Both the position numbers and the translations under genes were made by a program. A DNA stretch of 64,000 nt from contig NZ_CP009241.1 in NCBI RefSeq assembly GCF_000758525.1, positions 3,720,001 to 3,784,000 on the forward strand, read 5' to 3'. Below, piece by piece: positions 20,818 to 27,808 of this stretch. The stretch comes from Paenibacillus sp. FSL H7-0357. Lineage in GTDB: Bacteria > Bacillota > Bacilli > Paenibacillales > Paenibacillaceae. Position 1 is the first letter of the stretch; the number at the start of each line of letters is the position of its first letter. The notes under the pieces are model-generated. The model made no database searches and was not told the origin of the DNA. It saw only the letters and a list, made by a program, of their open reading frames with translations.

Positions 20818-20826
20818 TGGTATAAT
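20818..20826 (+). promoter_or_regulatory. Extended -10 promoter ahead of the SMC-type operon
   Basis: TGGTATAAT is an extended -10 element (TG-N-TATAAT) about 150 bp upstream of the first gene of the SMC-type operon. No good -35 hexamer is present, which is usual for extended -10 promoters. A hairpin follows in the resulting leader. Confidence 0.45.
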
Positions 20827-20872
20827 AGAAACATATATTCCCCAATAAACGTAAGTTATCAGTGGTACCCAG

Positions 20873-20910
20873 CCCATATTTCTCCCTTCATGGGGCAGAT
20901 ATGGGTTTAT
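20873..20910 (+). terminator. Hairpin in the leader between GNAT gene and SMC-type operon
   Basis: CCCATAT/ATATGGG with inner CTCCC/GGGG pairing is followed by TTTATGTTATTTTG. It may terminate the GNAT transcript. Because it lies downstream of the TGGTATAAT element, it could instead attenuate the SMC operon. Confidence 0.5.
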
Positions 20911-20976
20911 GTTATTTTGTGAGGGTTATGCAAAAATGCTCCTAAACTACGAAGTGATGGCGAGGTTGGCGCAAGG

Positions 20977-22485
20977 ATGAACTGGTCTGATTTTGGTGAA
21001 CGGAACAAACGCCTTAACCCACTGTGGACGCTGGGGGCGGGCATGAATCTTGGAGAACTGCAGCCTTATAAGGAAATGATTGCGCTCAGTGTGTTGCTGC
21101 AGGTCTACTATCTCGAGCTGGAATCCAATGAACGAAGAGCCAAAGAGGATATTATTGAGCTGGCCTGGAGTTCACTGGAGCGGTTTAATATTGCAAGGTT
21201 TGGAACCATCGAATCTGTGGAACGGCTGGTAGACGGGCTGCTGTGGAGCGGGGGCGGCGGGGATTTTGAAGCCTTTTATTATGATGATCAGACCCGGCAG
21301 ATGACTCTGCAAAAGTACAAATACTTCACGGTAGACGAGGATGCGACCCGCACCAGTTGGGAAGAGAGCGGCAAGACAGTTTACCGCCTTTCCGAATATG
21401 CGATGGAGCTTATCTTCATGAGCCATGAGATTATAGAAGAGTTCCAGATTAGTATTAAACTGCTGGAGATCCAAATGCATATTAAGCATGGACGCGTCAC
21501 CCGGGCGATGCAGGATGTGGGTGAACTGATCTCGCGGGTTCGGAAGATGACCCAGCAACAGCAGGAATACCGCAATGCGCTGCGGCGCAACCCGAAGCAT
21601 ATGTTCAGCGAATATGGGGTTATGCGGCATCAGCGGGTGGAGGAAATTCACCAGCAGTTTGATGAAGAACGCAAGCATTTTGATAATATCCACCGTTCCC
21701 TGGCCCGGCTGGCGAATGACGAGAAGGATGTTATCGACTTTAACGAGCTGCGCCTGTTATCCGAACGGGTGGAGCTGTCAAGAAAAGTACATGACGAGCT
21801 CGCGGAGGTTGTGCTTAGCATTTTTGAAGCCGAAACCAATTTAAGACTGAACTTTCCAGAGCTGTTCTGGGGAGCTGCCGGTTTTAATTTCCGCACGAAT
21901 GTATGGGAGGAATGGGTGAAAGCTGAAGGCCTGCCGAGCGGGGACAGTCTGGAAACCTTGATTAGCGGACTGTTCACACCGAGCCAGGACTTTATCTACC
22001 CCCTCGCCTGGGCTTGGGAAGAACAGGATGTCGGTTTTCTGCCGGAAGAATATCTGGATGAGCCCGATGAAGAAGGGGAGGAGCAACTTGCAACTTATAC
22101 GCCTAAGTCTATACCTTGGACTGAAGTTGCGGAGCTGTGGAAACCGATTTTTACCGAGCTTGCCGGCAAAGGACGTTTTACGTTCAAAGCGGATGCTTTC
22201 TCTCCGGAGGAACAGTCCCGTTGGGCACGGCTCCCGGATGCCATTGACCTGTGGGTACAGTTCTTTCATACCGAGGTCGTCGTACAGGAGTATAACGAAG
22301 ACAACCCTGGCGGAAGTGACGAGTGCCAGAAGCTGATTCAGCGGCTGCTTACGGATTGTCCTGAGCTGGAGATGCTGCGGGGCAAAGTGCTGCGGACAAC
22401 CATACTTGAACCGGATCAGGGGACAAGCGTGAGTTGGCCCGGTCTGGAAATGAGCCCTTATACCATTACTATAGTAGAGAGGTGA
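20977..22485 (+). CDS. JetA/MukF-like (kleisin-type) subunit of an SMC-type complex
   Basis: A 502-residue, mostly helical protein with no transmembrane segment. An N-terminal winged-helix-like region (about residues 25-75) is followed by a long helical region (about 140-290, QISIKLLEIQMHIKHGRVTRAMQDV and RQEYR-type heptads) and an acidic linker (about 355-375). Assignment rests mainly on context: it is the first of three overlapping genes whose last encodes a giant coiled-coil ATPase, as in Wadjet jetABCD and mukFEB. By itself the sequence is weakly recognisable. It probably bridges the ATPase heads. Confidence 0.62.
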   Translation: MNWSDFGERNKRLNPLWTLGAGMNLGELQPYKEMIALSVLLQVYYLELESNERRAKEDIIELAWSSLERFNIARFGTIESVERLVDGLLWSGGGGDFEAFYYDDQTRQMTLQKYKYFTVDEDATRTSWEESGKTVYRLSEYAMELIFMSHEIIEEFQISIKLLEIQMHIKHGRVTRAMQDVGELISRVRKMTQQQQEYRNALRRNPKHMFSEYGVMRHQRVEEIHQQFDEERKHFDNIHRSLARLANDEKDVIDFNELRLLSERVELSRKVHDELAEVVLSIFEAETNLRLNFPELFWGAAGFNFRTNVWEEWVKAEGLPSGDSLETLISGLFTPSQDFIYPLAWAWEEQDVGFLPEEYLDEPDEEGEEQLATYTPKSIPWTEVAELWKPIFTELAGKGRFTFKADAFSPEEQSRWARLPDAIDLWVQFFHTEVVVQEYNEDNPGGSDECQKLIQRLLTDCPELEMLRGKVLRTTILEPDQGTSVSWPGLEMSPYTITIVER

Positions 22486-22496
22486 GAGAATACAGC

Positions 22497-23255
22497 ATGA
22501 GCTATTCATTGGAACAATTGCAGCAGGCTTCGCGGCTGTTTTTTGATCTGCTTCGGCGGAAAGTCATATCTCTGGATGATCCAGCTGCAGTGGAATGCCT
22601 GCAGGATACGGGGGCCTATGACGCCTTGCAGTATATGGCTAAAGAGGGAGGCTGCCGGATTATGAATTCCGGGCACCGCCTTCACCTGCTGGTCAATCCG
22701 CTGGGATCGGGGTTCGCGTCCAACTTCACACAGCTGCGGAATAAATACTCACGAATTGAACGTAAAACCCATTTACATATTATCAACGTCATTATCCTGG
22801 TTTTTCTGGCGGAAATGGATCAGGATGAGCAGCACTTTAAGCCCGGTCAGGACAGCATGTCCTATATCCAAATCTCCGATCAGGTGTCCTCGCTTCTACA
22901 AGCATGGATCGAGCTGGATGAGGAAGGCAGCTTCAGCAAGCAGTGGCGTCTGGATATTCAGGCAATGCATAAAGTATGGGCAAGCCTTTATATGCAGACC
23001 AAAAGCCAGGAGGAAGGCGATTCCCTGTCGAGAGGCTCCGGTTCACGGATTGGACTGATTCATGAAGGGATGAAGCTGCTGGAGGAGGAACATCTGGTGT
23101 TTATTTCCGAGAACGAGAAGCGGATTTTCCCCCGGGAAGAGTTATATGAAAGAATGCGGTATCTGTACCACGATGTAGACCGTTACAAGGAATTGAAAGC
23201 TCTGATCGGCCGGACCTTGACGGAGAAGGAGGGGGAAGGCTATGCCGCGCATTGA
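22497..23255 (+). CDS. JetB/MukE-like subunit (DUF6063-like)
   Basis: A 252-residue protein starting 11 bp after the previous stop, with GAGGTGAG upstream of ATG 22497. The first half (EECG-like KEGGCRIMNSGHRLHLLVNPLGSGF, then NFTQLRNKYS) resembles the DUF6063 proteins that occupy the JetB position of some Wadjet systems. The remainder looks like tandem winged helices (KITE-type) ending in IFPREELYERMRYLY. It overlaps the ATPase gene by 14 bp, implying tight translational coupling. Likely role: kleisin-associated loader or regulator. The DUF label is from memory and is uncertain. Confidence 0.62.
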   Translation: MSYSLEQLQQASRLFFDLLRRKVISLDDPAAVECLQDTGAYDALQYMAKEGGCRIMNSGHRLHLLVNPLGSGFASNFTQLRNKYSRIERKTHLHIINVIILVFLAEMDQDEQHFKPGQDSMSYIQISDQVSSLLQAWIELDEEGSFSKQWRLDIQAMHKVWASLYMQTKSQEEGDSLSRGSGSRIGLIHEGMKLLEEEHLVFISENEKRIFPREELYERMRYLYHDVDRYKELKALIGRTLTEKEGEGYAAH

Positions 23256-26200
23256 ACGAATCCGTATCGCCGGACTGAAATACGAGAAGATGCTTAAGAA
23301 GTATGATGATATGATTCTTGATCTTTGCAATGAGGAAGGCCCGGCCAATACCCTGATTACCCTAATGAACGGCGGCGGGAAAGGCGTACTGCTGCAGTCC
23401 ATCTTCCAACTGCTCCTGCCTAAGGCGGCTTGGGGGAAAGACAATGAGAACCAGGTCGAGGCTTTTTTCCATAATCATAAAAAACAGCTCAAGCCCTATA
23501 CCTTCCACGTAGCGATTGAGTGGCGGCTGGACAACAGTGAGCGTAACGAATACATGACGACCGGTATTGCCATGACTGCCCACAGCTCGATAGATCAGCT
23601 GGAGATTAAGGTTGACTATCTGCTCTACGCGCTGATGGATTATGAAGAGCAGGCTGAGCTGACCCTTTCAACGCTGCCGCTGTATGATCATGCGGAAGGC
23701 GGTCCTGTAAGTTTTGAGACGATTCAACAATTTGTACGGGAACGGCGGAATGAAATTGTTGCCTTCGGCAGCCACAGCTCCGATCTGAAGAAGTACTACA
23801 GCTTTCTTGCTGAACGGGATATTCATATCGGTGAATGGCGTAACATGAAACGGATCAATGGTGAAGAGGGCGGGATCAAGGGCTATTTTCAAAAAAATGA
23901 GGCCTTTACCAACCACAATCTGTTCGAGAAGCTGATTATTCCGGAGATTGGCTCCAGTCTGAACGAGGGTGTCAAAGAAGAGGATGGTTCGCTTCAGCGG
24001 ATGTTTATCGATACCGCAACCATTGCCCAGAGACTTCCGATGCTGGAGCAGAGGGAAAAGGCTTTTGCCGAATTCACTACGCTGGCTGCACCGCTGTATG
24101 AGCTGGTCGAACAGGGAACGGAAGCCGAGCGGAGCTTCAGAGAGACTGAACTGCTGGGTCGGCAGATGTCTACGGTCATTCACGAGGAGCTTAAGAATGC
24201 AGAGGCGGAACGCAGCAAAACTGCCGATGCATTGGTTCAGCATCACCAGGAGGCGCGCCAGCTGCGTTTTGAGGGCGATAATCTGAAATATCTGCGCAGC
24301 AAAGAGGAACAGGATCTTAAGCAGGATGAATTCACGAGGATTTCAGACAACCAGACACGGGCCAAGTTGCGGCTGGATGAGTCGAAGCTGAAAGAGAAAA
24401 AGCTTGAAGTAGCTTATTATCTGGCCAAACGCAGCGCGCAGCTCCGCCAGATCGAGCAATGGCAGAAGGAAATTGAAGCTATCGAAGGCTCGCTGGAAAT
24501 GAAGGAACGCCAGGAGGTTATTCAGGGAGCGAAGGAAGAGCTGCGGCTGCAGTGGGACAAAGTCTTTCAGCTCTGGCAGGGACAGCTCTCGTCGTTCGTA
24601 ACCCGCCAGCATTCTCTGACTGCTGAAGAAAATGGCTTACGCAAAGAAAGGGAAAGCTTGCTGCTGGAACTGGGCGGTCTGGATAACCGGATCAATGAAC
24701 TTACAGGAGCCATCCGCCAATATACCGAGGAATTGGGTGTTTTTGCCTCACGCCATGGGCATGAAGCAGCCGGGGCGCCAGGAGCGGCGCTGCAGCGCAC
24801 GTTAATAGCAGCTAAGACAATCGCAGACAATATCAGCGGCTTTAACGAGCAGCGCAAAACTGCTGAAGAGCGTAAGCTCAGTCTGCACCAATCGCAGACC
24901 GAGCTGAAGGTGAAGCTGAATGCCGGGCAGAGCCAAAGCGATGAGCTTCAGAATCTGCTGGAGTCACAGATGAACAGGGAGTCACAGCTCTGGTCACAGC
25001 TGGTCGTGCTGCTGGAAATGTATGAAGAGCATCACCAACTGGGAGTTACGGCGCTATTTGAAGCGAAACCGGCCATTCAGGAGCGGTTTATCCGCAGGCT
25101 GGATGAGGCTGAGCAGCAGACGAAACGGCTGAGAAGGGATTATTACAACCAGCTGATCGATGTAGAGCTGCAGCAGGAGTCCTTCTGGCTGCCGAATGCG
25201 GATATCCTGAGAGTGAAGGACACACTGGATTCACTCAAAATCAGTTCCATGATCGGCAGCTCCTACCTGAATGACCTGCCTTACCTGAGCCGTGAAGAGG
25301 AAATGGAACGGCATCCGCTTCTTCCTTACGGAATTATTGTGACGCAGCGCGAAGCTGCCAAGCTCCAGCCGGATACGCTGAAAGAAGTCCTGCTCAAGTC
25401 AGCGGTGCCGGTTTTCATCCGGGAAGAGATGGCGGAAGCCGCATCCGGTCCTTTCCTGCTGCCAGCCAATCAAGGTCCGCAGATGGTTCTGCAGCCGGAT
25501 CATTTCCAGGAATGGAAACGCGGAATATCCTCCAGTCTTAAGCATCAGGAGGAAGAGCTTAAGGATGCGGAAGCCTATCTGTCGAAGCTCAAATCGGCGC
25601 GGCAGGAATTCGAGCGCTTGTTCCAGAGTGAACATACCTTGGCCCTGAAAGCCAAACTGAATACACTTGAATTACTGCAGAATGAGCTGAATCTAAAGCT
25701 CGGGGATTTGAACACGGAGATCAGCAGGAATGAAGACAGCCTTGCGGTTATTCAGAGAGAGCTGGCACAATCTGAAGCCGATCGGACCGAGCATGAAGAA
25801 AGAGCACAGGCGCTGCGCCAGTGGGATGAACGGACAAAGAAGCAGGAACAGGATTATAAGGATAAGCAAAAAGCGGTAGAACGCAAAAAAGAATTGAGCA
25901 AAGAAATCGCCAGCAAGGATCAGGGGCTGGTTCAGGTAAAGGCCGAGCTGGGCAGCACCGCGCAGCAGCGGGAGAAGTGGATTGGAGATACCCGCTATTC
26001 GCTTTTTCCAAGGCTGCAGAACTGGTTTCCCGAAATTGCTTTCCCCGGCGAATATCCGGTTGCTCCTGCTCTGGAAGAAGAGCCCGTACTTGATCCTGCT
26101 GCTCAAGATACGCTAATGCAGCTGCTCAGCACGGTGGAAAGCCTCCAGCAGTCCTTAACGCAGAATGAACTGGAGATCCGTACGAGAGCGGGGAATATCA

Positions 26201-27726
26201 AACGGGCCGGTGAACAGCTGGCGGAGATCGAAGCTGCGGTGGTCCAGGTGGATCAAGATTGGCGGAATGCCCCTCTTCCAACGGATACAGCCGAGGTGAT
26301 TTTGACGGCCAGAGCGAGACAGAAGAACGAGACGGTATACTTGGATGAGGACTATCAGCTTGTCCACGATTCGTTTATCCGCGCCCAGACCATCCTTGAG
26401 AATCTGCAGAAGGATCTACGGAAATCCGAAAAAGTGATCAAGGAGAAACATGAACGTGCTGTAGAAATATGGCATGATCCGCTGGATCAGAAGGAAGAAG
26501 AGATCAGCAGGCGTTTCCGGGAGAATGAACAGCTGCTTAACAGCTGCAAACAAGCCTTGAGTGTTATGGATCAATGGATTCAAACATTGGTAAGCCAAAG
26601 CAAAATCATGGATACCCATGTAGAGGGACGGGTCCAAATGCGGGATGTTCCTGAAGAGCTGCAGCAGCGGGTAAAAGAAAATTGTGAGCCGCTGGTAGCT
26701 GACTGGCTGCTGCGCAGCAAGGAAAGCCGCAGTGAGCGGTCGGAAATCTCCCGTAAGGTGAAGGAAGAGAAGACGTCTTTAAGCAGTAAATTGGCGAAAA
26801 GCGGCTGGAATGCCGAGCTGGAGACCAAAATCCAGGAAAGGCTGAATACTGTACATTGGGATGACTTTTCTATAGCCCGGCAGGTGCTTGATTCCATGCT
26901 CCAAAGCTCGCGCGATCAGATTGAGAGCATCCGCAGCGACAAGGAAGGGATGGAGCTGTCCCGCAAGCTGTGGGTTGGCCGTGCCGCCAAACGTGTCGTG
27001 CAGATTGTCGATATCCTGAAGCGTATGGAACGCCGGATGATCATTCTTAATGAGAATGGACATGCTTTTCCATTGGTCCGCCTGAATTACAAGAACATTA
27101 CGGTGCCGAAGACGAGCGATGATATCGAGCCGCTGGTCAGTGATTATTTCAACCGCTGCATTAGCGGGCTATTGGAGAAATATGCCAAGATTGAGCAGGT
27201 GCCGGCAGCCGCTGTCAAAGAGATGATCAATGACGGGAAAATCGTATACGCCGCGATGCAGAACCGTTTTCCGGTGCTTCAGGTCTACAAGCCGGTGACC
27301 GAGAACTATTTCCTGTATGCGGCTCCTGAAGAGTACCATTATTCCGACTGGGAAGTTATTAACCGCGGAGCACTGGATGAGGCTGTCGGCAGCGGCGGGC
27401 AACGCCAGTCTGTGCAGCTGCTGGTTGCTATGATGATCATGACCCATAAGCGGGTCAACCGTGAGAACAAGGGCTGGACGGTTTTCCTGTACGATAATCC
27501 ATTTGGTGAGATGGTTTCGAACAACGTACTTGATCCGGTATTTGAAATATCCAAAGCACTCAAATTCCAGTGGCTGATCGTTACGCCGCCCGAGCTGGTG
27601 AAGAATGATGTCAGCATCCGTTTCGGCGTGTACTGGCAGCTGTATTTTGGGGGAGATAAAGGAGAAATGCTGGAATCCACGCTCATTAAGGGTGGCCGAA
27701 AGCTGATTCCTGCTTCCTTGTTCTGA
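23242..27726 (+). CDS. JetC/MukB-like SMC-type coiled-coil ATPase
   Basis: A 1494-residue ATPase with split head domains. The N-terminal head has a Walker A-like TLMNGGGKGVLLQ (about residues 43-55). Long coiled coils (about 290-560 and 770-1230) flank a globular hinge-like region (about 655-760, LPYGIIVTQREAAKL). The C-terminal head has signature SGGQRQS (about 1388), Walker B-like VFLYDNPFGE and the switch region WLIVTPPE. Two key positions are non-canonical: Gly replaces Ser/Thr after the Walker A Lys, and Asn replaces the catalytic Glu after the Walker B Asp. GGAGG precedes the ATG. No JetD-like nuclease gene follows. Confidence 0.8.
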   Translation: MPRIERIRIAGLKYEKMLKKYDDMILDLCNEEGPANTLITLMNGGGKGVLLQSIFQLLLPKAAWGKDNENQVEAFFHNHKKQLKPYTFHVAIEWRLDNSERNEYMTTGIAMTAHSSIDQLEIKVDYLLYALMDYEEQAELTLSTLPLYDHAEGGPVSFETIQQFVRERRNEIVAFGSHSSDLKKYYSFLAERDIHIGEWRNMKRINGEEGGIKGYFQKNEAFTNHNLFEKLIIPEIGSSLNEGVKEEDGSLQRMFIDTATIAQRLPMLEQREKAFAEFTTLAAPLYELVEQGTEAERSFRETELLGRQMSTVIHEELKNAEAERSKTADALVQHHQEARQLRFEGDNLKYLRSKEEQDLKQDEFTRISDNQTRAKLRLDESKLKEKKLEVAYYLAKRSAQLRQIEQWQKEIEAIEGSLEMKERQEVIQGAKEELRLQWDKVFQLWQGQLSSFVTRQHSLTAEENGLRKERESLLLELGGLDNRINELTGAIRQYTEELGVFASRHGHEAAGAPGAALQRTLIAAKTIADNISGFNEQRKTAEERKLSLHQSQTELKVKLNAGQSQSDELQNLLESQMNRESQLWSQLVVLLEMYEEHHQLGVTALFEAKPAIQERFIRRLDEAEQQTKRLRRDYYNQLIDVELQQESFWLPNADILRVKDTLDSLKISSMIGSSYLNDLPYLSREEEMERHPLLPYGIIVTQREAAKLQPDTLKEVLLKSAVPVFIREEMAEAASGPFLLPANQGPQMVLQPDHFQEWKRGISSSLKHQEEELKDAEAYLSKLKSARQEFERLFQSEHTLALKAKLNTLELLQNELNLKLGDLNTEISRNEDSLAVIQRELAQSEADRTEHEERAQALRQWDERTKKQEQDYKDKQKAVERKKELSKEIASKDQGLVQVKAELGSTAQQREKWIGDTRYSLFPRLQNWFPEIAFPGEYPVAPALEEEPVLDPAAQDTLMQLLSTVESLQQSLTQNELEIRTRAGNIKRAGEQLAEIEAAVVQVDQDWRNAPLPTDTAEVILTARARQKNETVYLDEDYQLVHDSFIRAQTILENLQKDLRKSEKVIKEKHERAVEIWHDPLDQKEEEISRRFRENEQLLNSCKQALSVMDQWIQTLVSQSKIMDTHVEGRVQMRDVPEELQQRVKENCEPLVADWLLRSKESRSERSEISRKVKEEKTSLSSKLAKSGWNAELETKIQERLNTVHWDDFSIARQVLDSMLQSSRDQIESIRSDKEGMELSRKLWVGRAAKRVVQIVDILKRMERRMIILNENGHAFPLVRLNYKNITVPKTSDDIEPLVSDYFNRCISGLLEKYAKIEQVPAAAVKEMINDGKIVYAAMQNRFPVLQVYKPVTENYFLYAAPEEYHYSDWEVINRGALDEAVGSGGQRQSVQLLVAMMIMTHKRVNRENKGWTVFLYDNPFGEMVSNNVLDPVFEISKALKFQWLIVTPPELVKNDVSIRFGVYWQLYFGGDKGEMLESTLIKGGRKLIPASLF

Positions 27727-27777
27727 CCATATCATAAGTCAATCGCGCTATCTAACGGCAACTATAGAAATAAAGTA

Positions 27778-27808
27778 AGAGACCCGGCATCACGCTGAGT
27801 CTCTTTTT
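27778..27808 (+). terminator. Intrinsic terminator of the SMC-type operon
   Basis: An imperfect stem, AGAGACCCGGC/GCTGAGTCTCT, is followed by TTTTT. It lies 50 bp after the ATPase stop and separates the operon from the TPM gene. Confidence 0.78.

Follow-up and report, generated by a model that had tools for sequence, protein, structure and literature searches.

Apparent recurrent loss of the nuclease gene jetD from a type III Wadjet operon with conserved jetABC in a Paenibacillus clade

What use does a bacterium have for a Wadjet motor that has been parted from its nuclease? The question is raised by a three-gene operon in a 64,000-nucleotide (nt) stretch of DNA of the soil bacterium Paenibacillus sp. 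FSL H7-0357 (NZ_CP009241.1, positions 3,720,001–3,784,000; assembly GCF_000758525.1), hereafter called the window. In published accounts of Wadjet, as far as their available text goes, JetABC is the structural maintenance of chromosomes (SMC) motor and sensor, and JetD is the nuclease (PMC10586767; PMC10123090). The operon in the window encodes JetA, JetB and JetC without JetD. Because jetABC in this and related genomes stays almost always full length and under purifying selection after repeated loss of jetD, the comparison suggests a JetD-independent use of JetABC. The most likely work of the complex, to which we give a probability of about 55%, would be to extrude DNA loops in the manner of MukBEF/MksBEF, without a nuclease and alongside the resident SMC–ScpA.

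The three genes of the operon are as follows.

20977–22485, forward strand: jetA, a MukF/JetA-like kleisin of 502 amino acids (PADLOC JetA3, 760 bits; best Foldseek match a MukBEF chain, E 1.5e-4)
22497–23255, forward strand: jetB, a MukE/JetB-like KITE protein of 252 amino acids with DUF6063 (PADLOC JetB3, 376 bits; PF19539, 73.6 bits)
23242–27726, forward strand: jetC, an SMC-like coiled-coil ATPase of 1494 amino acids (PADLOC JetC3, 3023 bits)

Judged by PADLOC scores, gene order and spacing, the operon at 20977–27726 comprises JetA, JetB and JetC of a type III Wadjet system; the JetD Toprim (DUF2220) nuclease that also characterises this type was detected neither at the locus nor in the genome. 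The JetC3 match spans all 1494 residues, and the JetB match to DUF6063 was far above the cut-off of 27 bits; JetA and JetC had no above-cut-off match in Pfam or NCBIfam. An earlier note, made from the letters of this DNA alone, had recognised the same three open reading frames (ORFs) as a kleisin-like protein, a MukE/DUF6063-like protein and a 1494-residue ATPase in an SMC operon that resembles Wadjet/MukBEF but lacks JetD, and both the coordinates and the assignments were borne out. Its description of the genes as overlapping held for jetB and jetC (14 nt) but not for jetA and jetB, as the likely jetB ATG (22497) lies 11 nt past the jetA stop.

By the ranking of their matches, the predicted folds of JetA and JetB agreed with this identity; with middling models and low TM-scores (template modelling scores), they are support rather than proof. 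For the JetA model (predicted local distance difference test score, pLDDT, 71.7), the first seven Foldseek matches were MukBEF, MukEF or Wadjet chains, only the best of them having an E value under 1e-3; for JetB (pLDDT 75.3), the first 14 were Wadjet JetABC, MukE, MukEF or MukBEF chains, with a best E of 2.6e-3 and none under 1e-3. With VIA-align, JetA also matched helical proteins of unrelated kinds at comparable Z, and searching the PDB by sequence with the JetA profile gave one match, to a ribosomal protein (E 0.33).

The genome is a single contig of 7,692,748 bases (99.98% complete). The full-genome JetD search that the earlier note had proposed gave 0 matches, both with PF09983 (JetD_C), which detected the positive control in Corynebacterium glutamicum, and with a profile built from nine JetD proteins of this family. 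Relocation of jetD to another part of this genome was rejected on these grounds.

The place where jetD should be sought became apparent from related loci. Among 100 Paenibacillus genomes, the window's own included, 52 (again with the window) contained a JetC match, and the locus was retrieved for the 51 others (loci and genomes of these relatives are labelled L and G, with a number). In 16 of the 51, an ORF ends no more than 60 nt from the jetA start, and one such ORF that was tested matched both PADLOC JetD3 (408 bits) and PF09983. The operon order is therefore jetD-jetA-jetB-jetC, with jetD expected upstream of jetA and not downstream of jetC, a correction to the earlier note. Residues E213, D271 and D273 (L063 numbering) were invariant in nine JetD copies and are presumably the Toprim acidic residues. 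The same GNAT gene lies upstream in 37 of the 51 loci and the same TPM gene downstream in 38, so that for the most part they represent a single conserved chromosomal locus. The synteny comparison suggested in the earlier note thus placed an intact jetD upstream of jetA in relatives and a scar at the same position in the window, which consists of the following parts.

20909–20926, forward strand: 5′ remnant of jetD (start region), 18 nt kept relative to the intact jetD of L063
20927–20939, forward strand: probable 13-nt filler at the deletion junction, for which the aligned jetD shows no clear equivalent
20940–20980, forward strand: 3′ remnant of jetD, its last 12 codons and stop, the stop overlapping the jetA ATG

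Read in frame from 20909, the scar encodes MLFCEG-YAK-MLLNYEVMARLAQG up to this stop. Intact JetD proteins open with MLFYEGD or a similar sequence and close with EVLNYEVMARLA, and the 3′ remnant in the window reads LNYEVMARLAQG before its stop. The tblastn match of this remnant to JetD (13 residues, 85% identity, E 0.17) is weak alone; it is the position and frame of the remnant, together with a series of longer jetD remnants at the same position in relatives (e.g., L056, L064, L065 and L072), that point to deletion of jetD from its start region to its last 12 codons. Furthermore, in an alignment of 36 leaders, of which 11 belong to intact jetD, the leader at this locus resembles the one that precedes intact jetD in relatives. 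The ends of jetD may have been kept since its last codons hold the purine-rich stretch before the jetA ATG. A three-gene Wadjet subtype that never had JetD could be ruled out, as the scars and the jetD-bearing relatives show deletion.

The deletion is not particular to this strain. In a clade set of 50 loci including the window, from which the distant L046 (JetC 25% identical) and the fragment L051 were left out, jetD was intact in 13, broken in three (in L055 it is divided between two reading frames, in L065 it has an internal deletion and in L088 its parts are separated by approximately 1.6 kb) and missing from 34, the window among them, some with longer remnants. On a JetABC tree of the same set, built quickly and supported by Shimodaira–Hasegawa-like approximate likelihood ratio test (SH-aLRT) values only, intact jetD and its absence or breakage were separated by 13 changes, at least nine of them forced by well-supported branches. 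If jetD was never regained, a minimum of 24 losses, broken copies included, is required on the full tree, 19 after branches below 80 are collapsed and 17 after those below 95. Among 500 label shuffles, 28 reached the observed count of changes, and jetD presence is therefore only mildly clustered on the tree. Scar junctions, sorted by eye, fell into about 16–20 shapes, with ambiguity between the L078 group and L086/87, in L076 and in L090–L092. Near neighbours can differ in jetD: L050 (scar) and L063 (intact) are separated by 0.024 changes per column, although L050 fills 33% of the tree columns (L049, 22%), and L090 (scar) and L093 (intact) by 0.042. These results indicate, at the level of sequence, that jetD has been lost repeatedly across the clade and that some of the losses are recent. 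The earlier note had named, as a case that would speak against it, a jetD normally present here and merely deleted in this strain. Half of this holds, jetD being normally present and deleted, but the loss recurs clade-wide and jetABC is constrained. As for kinship of the genomes, among the matches listed, jetC is carried by each of the 15 other genomes that score highest for ThrS, and the 16th lacks it; additional thrS-like matches blur this marker.

If JetD-dependent defence were the only purpose of jetABC, the three genes would be expected to decay once jetD was gone, and no such decay was seen across the repeated losses. Scored from ORF length, jetA, jetB and jetC were all full length in 33 of the 34 jetD-less loci, in 11 of the 13 with intact jetD and in all three with broken jetD. 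The ratio of nonsynonymous to synonymous divergence (dN/dS), computed with our own Nei–Gojobori script for 20 pairs from six groups sharing one scar, was 0.045–0.150 for jetA, 0.009–0.056 for jetB and 0.063–0.111 for jetC. The corresponding values in four jetD-bearing pairs were 0.082–0.152, 0.016–0.064 and 0.085–0.108, and thrS ranged from 0.037 to 0.114 in 19 of the 20 post-loss pairs. In a smaller set of 14 pairs, five (two with L076, two with L091 and the pair L052/L053) do not truly share one scar, and that set was not relied on. One group (L078/82/83/84) is interleaved with jetD-bearing loci in the tree; the 14 pairs that remain without it gave 0.045–0.101 for jetA, 0.009–0.056 for jetB and 0.063–0.099 for jetC. 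In the deepest jetC pair, from the L066/70/71/75 group, 126 nonsynonymous differences were counted, compared with approximately 1812 expected without selection. Thus, jetABC has remained under purifying selection after jetD loss, as in jetD-bearing pairs and in thrS. Decay of jetABC after a recent loss of jetD is highly improbable in light of these ratios, which are far below 1; some losses are indeed recent (L050 versus L063) and jetC is interrupted in the jetD-less L050, but interrupted jetABC was not commoner without jetD (1/34) than with intact jetD (2/13; L048 and L049). The reverse state was observed in these last two loci, jetB being interrupted in L048 and both jetB and jetC in L049 beside an intact jetD, which may reflect sequencing error.

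The motifs NGGGKG, GSGGQ and DNPFG, which we take to be Walker A, signature and Walker B, were found in the window JetC and in 47/47 other aligned JetC proteins of the clade, and were unchanged after jetD loss. A degenerate ATPase was ruled out, as the unusual Walker A sequence is common to jetD-bearing relatives and outgroups.

The nuclease gene itself had a different history in part of the clade. In L080/L081 and L081/L085, synonymous divergence (dS) of jetD was 0.77 and 0.69, respectively, compared with 0.18–0.34 for jetABC of the same pairs; identity was 62%–85% over most of jetD and 86%–93% near its end, and that of jetABC was mostly 89%–97%, with dips to 79% in L081/L085. The jetD dN/dS (0.14–0.24 in five pairs) was above that of jetABC where the same pairs were compared, and recombination may add to it. 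This mosaic upstream of jetA in L080, L081 and L085 suggests that the nuclease gene by itself was exchanged horizontally, and some jetD presences may be regains. Since jetD alleles move between strains, the loss counts that assume no regain are upper readings. Such exchange is what would be expected of a reversible off state, in which strains drop jetD while plasmids benefit them and recover it by homologous recombination, jetABC being kept because of its frequent return; the single scar shared by L078, L082, L083 and L084, among which jetD-bearing loci stand in the tree, points the same way. However, jetABC is fully constrained even in an old jetD-less group with a shared scar (L066/70/71/75, jetC dS up to 0.52), and selection for a possible future return of jetD would be weak. 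We consider this explanation distinctly unlikely.

Another nuclease, encoded in trans, might instead serve as the partner of JetABC. Another ORF with a JetD_C domain was present elsewhere in four of the 34 jetD-less genomes (G017, G039, G080 and G093); those of G080 and G093 belong to a second complete type III system. In the other 30, including that of the window, no JetD_C match was found besides scar remnants, unrelated nucleases not having been searched for. A new partner gene directly after jetC was also ruled out, since no ORF cluster there was specific to jetD-less loci: the ORFs starting within 2.5 kb past jetC formed four clusters of at least five loci, and these clusters also occurred in 10, 6, 3 and 1 of the 13 loci with intact jetD. 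The largest cluster consists of TPM-like proteins, and the second largest presumably of aldo/keto reductases, as read by eye. Partnership in trans is accordingly a very doubtful explanation, and a JetD homologue as a nuclease elsewhere in the window genome is unlikely. The three options offered in the earlier note are narrowed to this extent: a condensin-like role or working without cleavage is favoured over decay, and a JetD homologue encoded elsewhere is disfavoured by the lack of any JetD match in the genome. As a separate observation, ORFs with a JetD_C domain (frames of 407–482 amino acids) away from jetABC were recorded as L031 (G017), L037 (G039), L038 (G071) and L032 (G042), and second, distant and complete jetD-jetA-jetB-jetC systems as L195 (G090), L196 (G093) and L197 (G080); in G093 and G080, it is the main locus that lacks its jetD through loss. 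In G089, a JetD-like ORF adjoins a JetA-like ORF on contig C85.

Outside the clade, full-length jetD was present in 30/30 systems, compared with intact jetD in 13/50 inside, and jetD-less loci numbered 0/30 outside versus 34/50 inside; these 30 exclude weaker JetA matches in other genera. They include 21 loci found by JetA patterns (in Neobacillus, Halanaerobium, Lutispora, Natroniella and others), all with full-length jetD, located upstream of jetA in 12 and downstream of jetC in nine, as well as L046, three second systems found in Paenibacillus itself and another five members of the family. The clade also differs in JetC. All 48 aligned clade proteins share a stretch (residues 1377–1430 of the JetC encoded in the window) with GQRQSVQLLVAMMI at the signature and FLYDNPFGEM or a near form at Walker B, independently of jetD state, whereas six outgroup proteins have GQLLAARTMIMMMI or a near form and TDNPFGQA or a near form; clade JetC lies on a long stem branch of the JetABC tree. 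A functional shift of clade JetC before the jetD losses would fit these differences. One possible history, to which we give slightly less than an even chance, is that JetABC gained a JetD-independent function, in handling the chromosome or plasmids, and that the loss of JetD came afterwards, JetD then being an optional module that was repeatedly deleted and sometimes regained, and the clade representing natural intermediates in a Wadjet-to-MukBEF transition.

The loop-extruder reading draws on the selection data and on the literature on JetABC and MksBEF. The type III operon has lost jetD, of which the leader and the final codons upstream of jetA stay behind; JetABC would still be made and assemble as an SMC–kleisin–KITE motor, which would extrude loops of the chromosome, and perhaps of plasmids, without a nuclease. 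It would act in addition to the resident SMC (a 1197-amino-acid frame) and ScpA, both of which are encoded in the genome; the one JetA relative there is the window's own jetA. Several points weigh against this reading. Selection reveals that JetABC has a use, not which use, and some jetD-less states may be temporary, jetD alleles being exchanged. Near its signature and Walker B motifs, JetC of the clade is unlike that of the outgroups, and function is therefore not simply transferable from better-known relatives. No MukB, MukE or MukF family was among the Pfam/NCBIfam matches of JetABC up to an E of 1. Defence without cleavage, in which JetABC compacts small circular DNA or hinders its transcription, replication or partition, would also account for a sensor and motor part fully conserved after jetD loss, and JetABC is described, in the available text, as giving the nuclease its shape and size sensing (PMC10586767). 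We nevertheless regard it as rather unlikely, since all four Jet components were required against plasmids in Bacillus subtilis according to the same sources (PMC10586767; PMC10123090).

All three core proteins of the window match the PADLOC models of type III JetABCD, and JetD3 of relatives adjoins the same three genes; the window operon differs in lacking JetD, none being detected in its genome. By gene content, it would qualify as the nuclease-free SMC–kleisin–KITE arrangement of MukBEF/MksBEF. It shares with MksBEF of Pseudomonas aeruginosa without MksG the nuclease-free operon beside a resident SMC, but the jetD losses observed here recur within a single genus, in part recently, and their scars survive. 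MksBEF presumably stems from another Wadjet lineage, MksB being related to type I. The likeness to enterobacterial MukBEF lies in architecture, and the predicted JetA and JetB folds, from middling models, rank MukBEF/MukEF chains among their first matches; unlike enterobacteria, in which MukBEF apparently replaced SMC–ScpAB (PMC10586767, available text), the window genome keeps SMC and ScpA. The origin of a MksBEF/MukBEF-like complex by JetD loss has already been proposed (PMC10586767, available text), P. aeruginosa MksBEF being a likely case (PMC10586767; PMC10123090), and chromosomal activity of any JetABCD system was undocumented as of 2023 according to the available text of these two articles. 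What appears to be new here is that the loss is recurrent and partly recent; in the open-access literature covered, which did not extend to bioRxiv, we came across no description of jetD being lost repeatedly while jetABC is conserved, in Paenibacillus or otherwise. Sister species differing in jetD make two questions directly testable: whether the chromosome is a target of Wadjet motors, and whether nuclease loss from Wadjet gave rise to MukBEF/MksBEF. In these species, immunity would be overestimated if JetABC by itself were taken as Wadjet.

The operon is flanked by three further candidate elements.

20821–20826, forward strand: TATAAT, perhaps the −10 element of what was the jetDABC promoter; 28 of the 36 leaders in the alignment have it, jetD-bearing and jetD-less ones alike
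20873–20905, forward strand: leader hairpin CCCATAT...ATATGGG before the former jetD, with similar sequence before intact jetD in relatives
27777–27805, forward strand: intrinsic-terminator-like stem-loop followed by U5 (−14.5 kcal/mol, z −3.73, 0/200 shuffles as stable)

The terminator and TPM gene that the earlier note placed after jetC were both recovered, a TPM-domain gene following the stem-loop, which the criteria of the terminator scanner left uncalled. The promoter scanner called nothing at the TATAAT, which is a lead only. The hairpin stretch at 20862–20905 (−17.2 kcal/mol, z −1.68, 9/200 shuffles as stable) is weak alone. In both jetD-bearing and jetD-less loci, the leader contains a nested hairpin together with a GAAACATATATTC-like stretch that recurs; this may be an element that regulates the operon.

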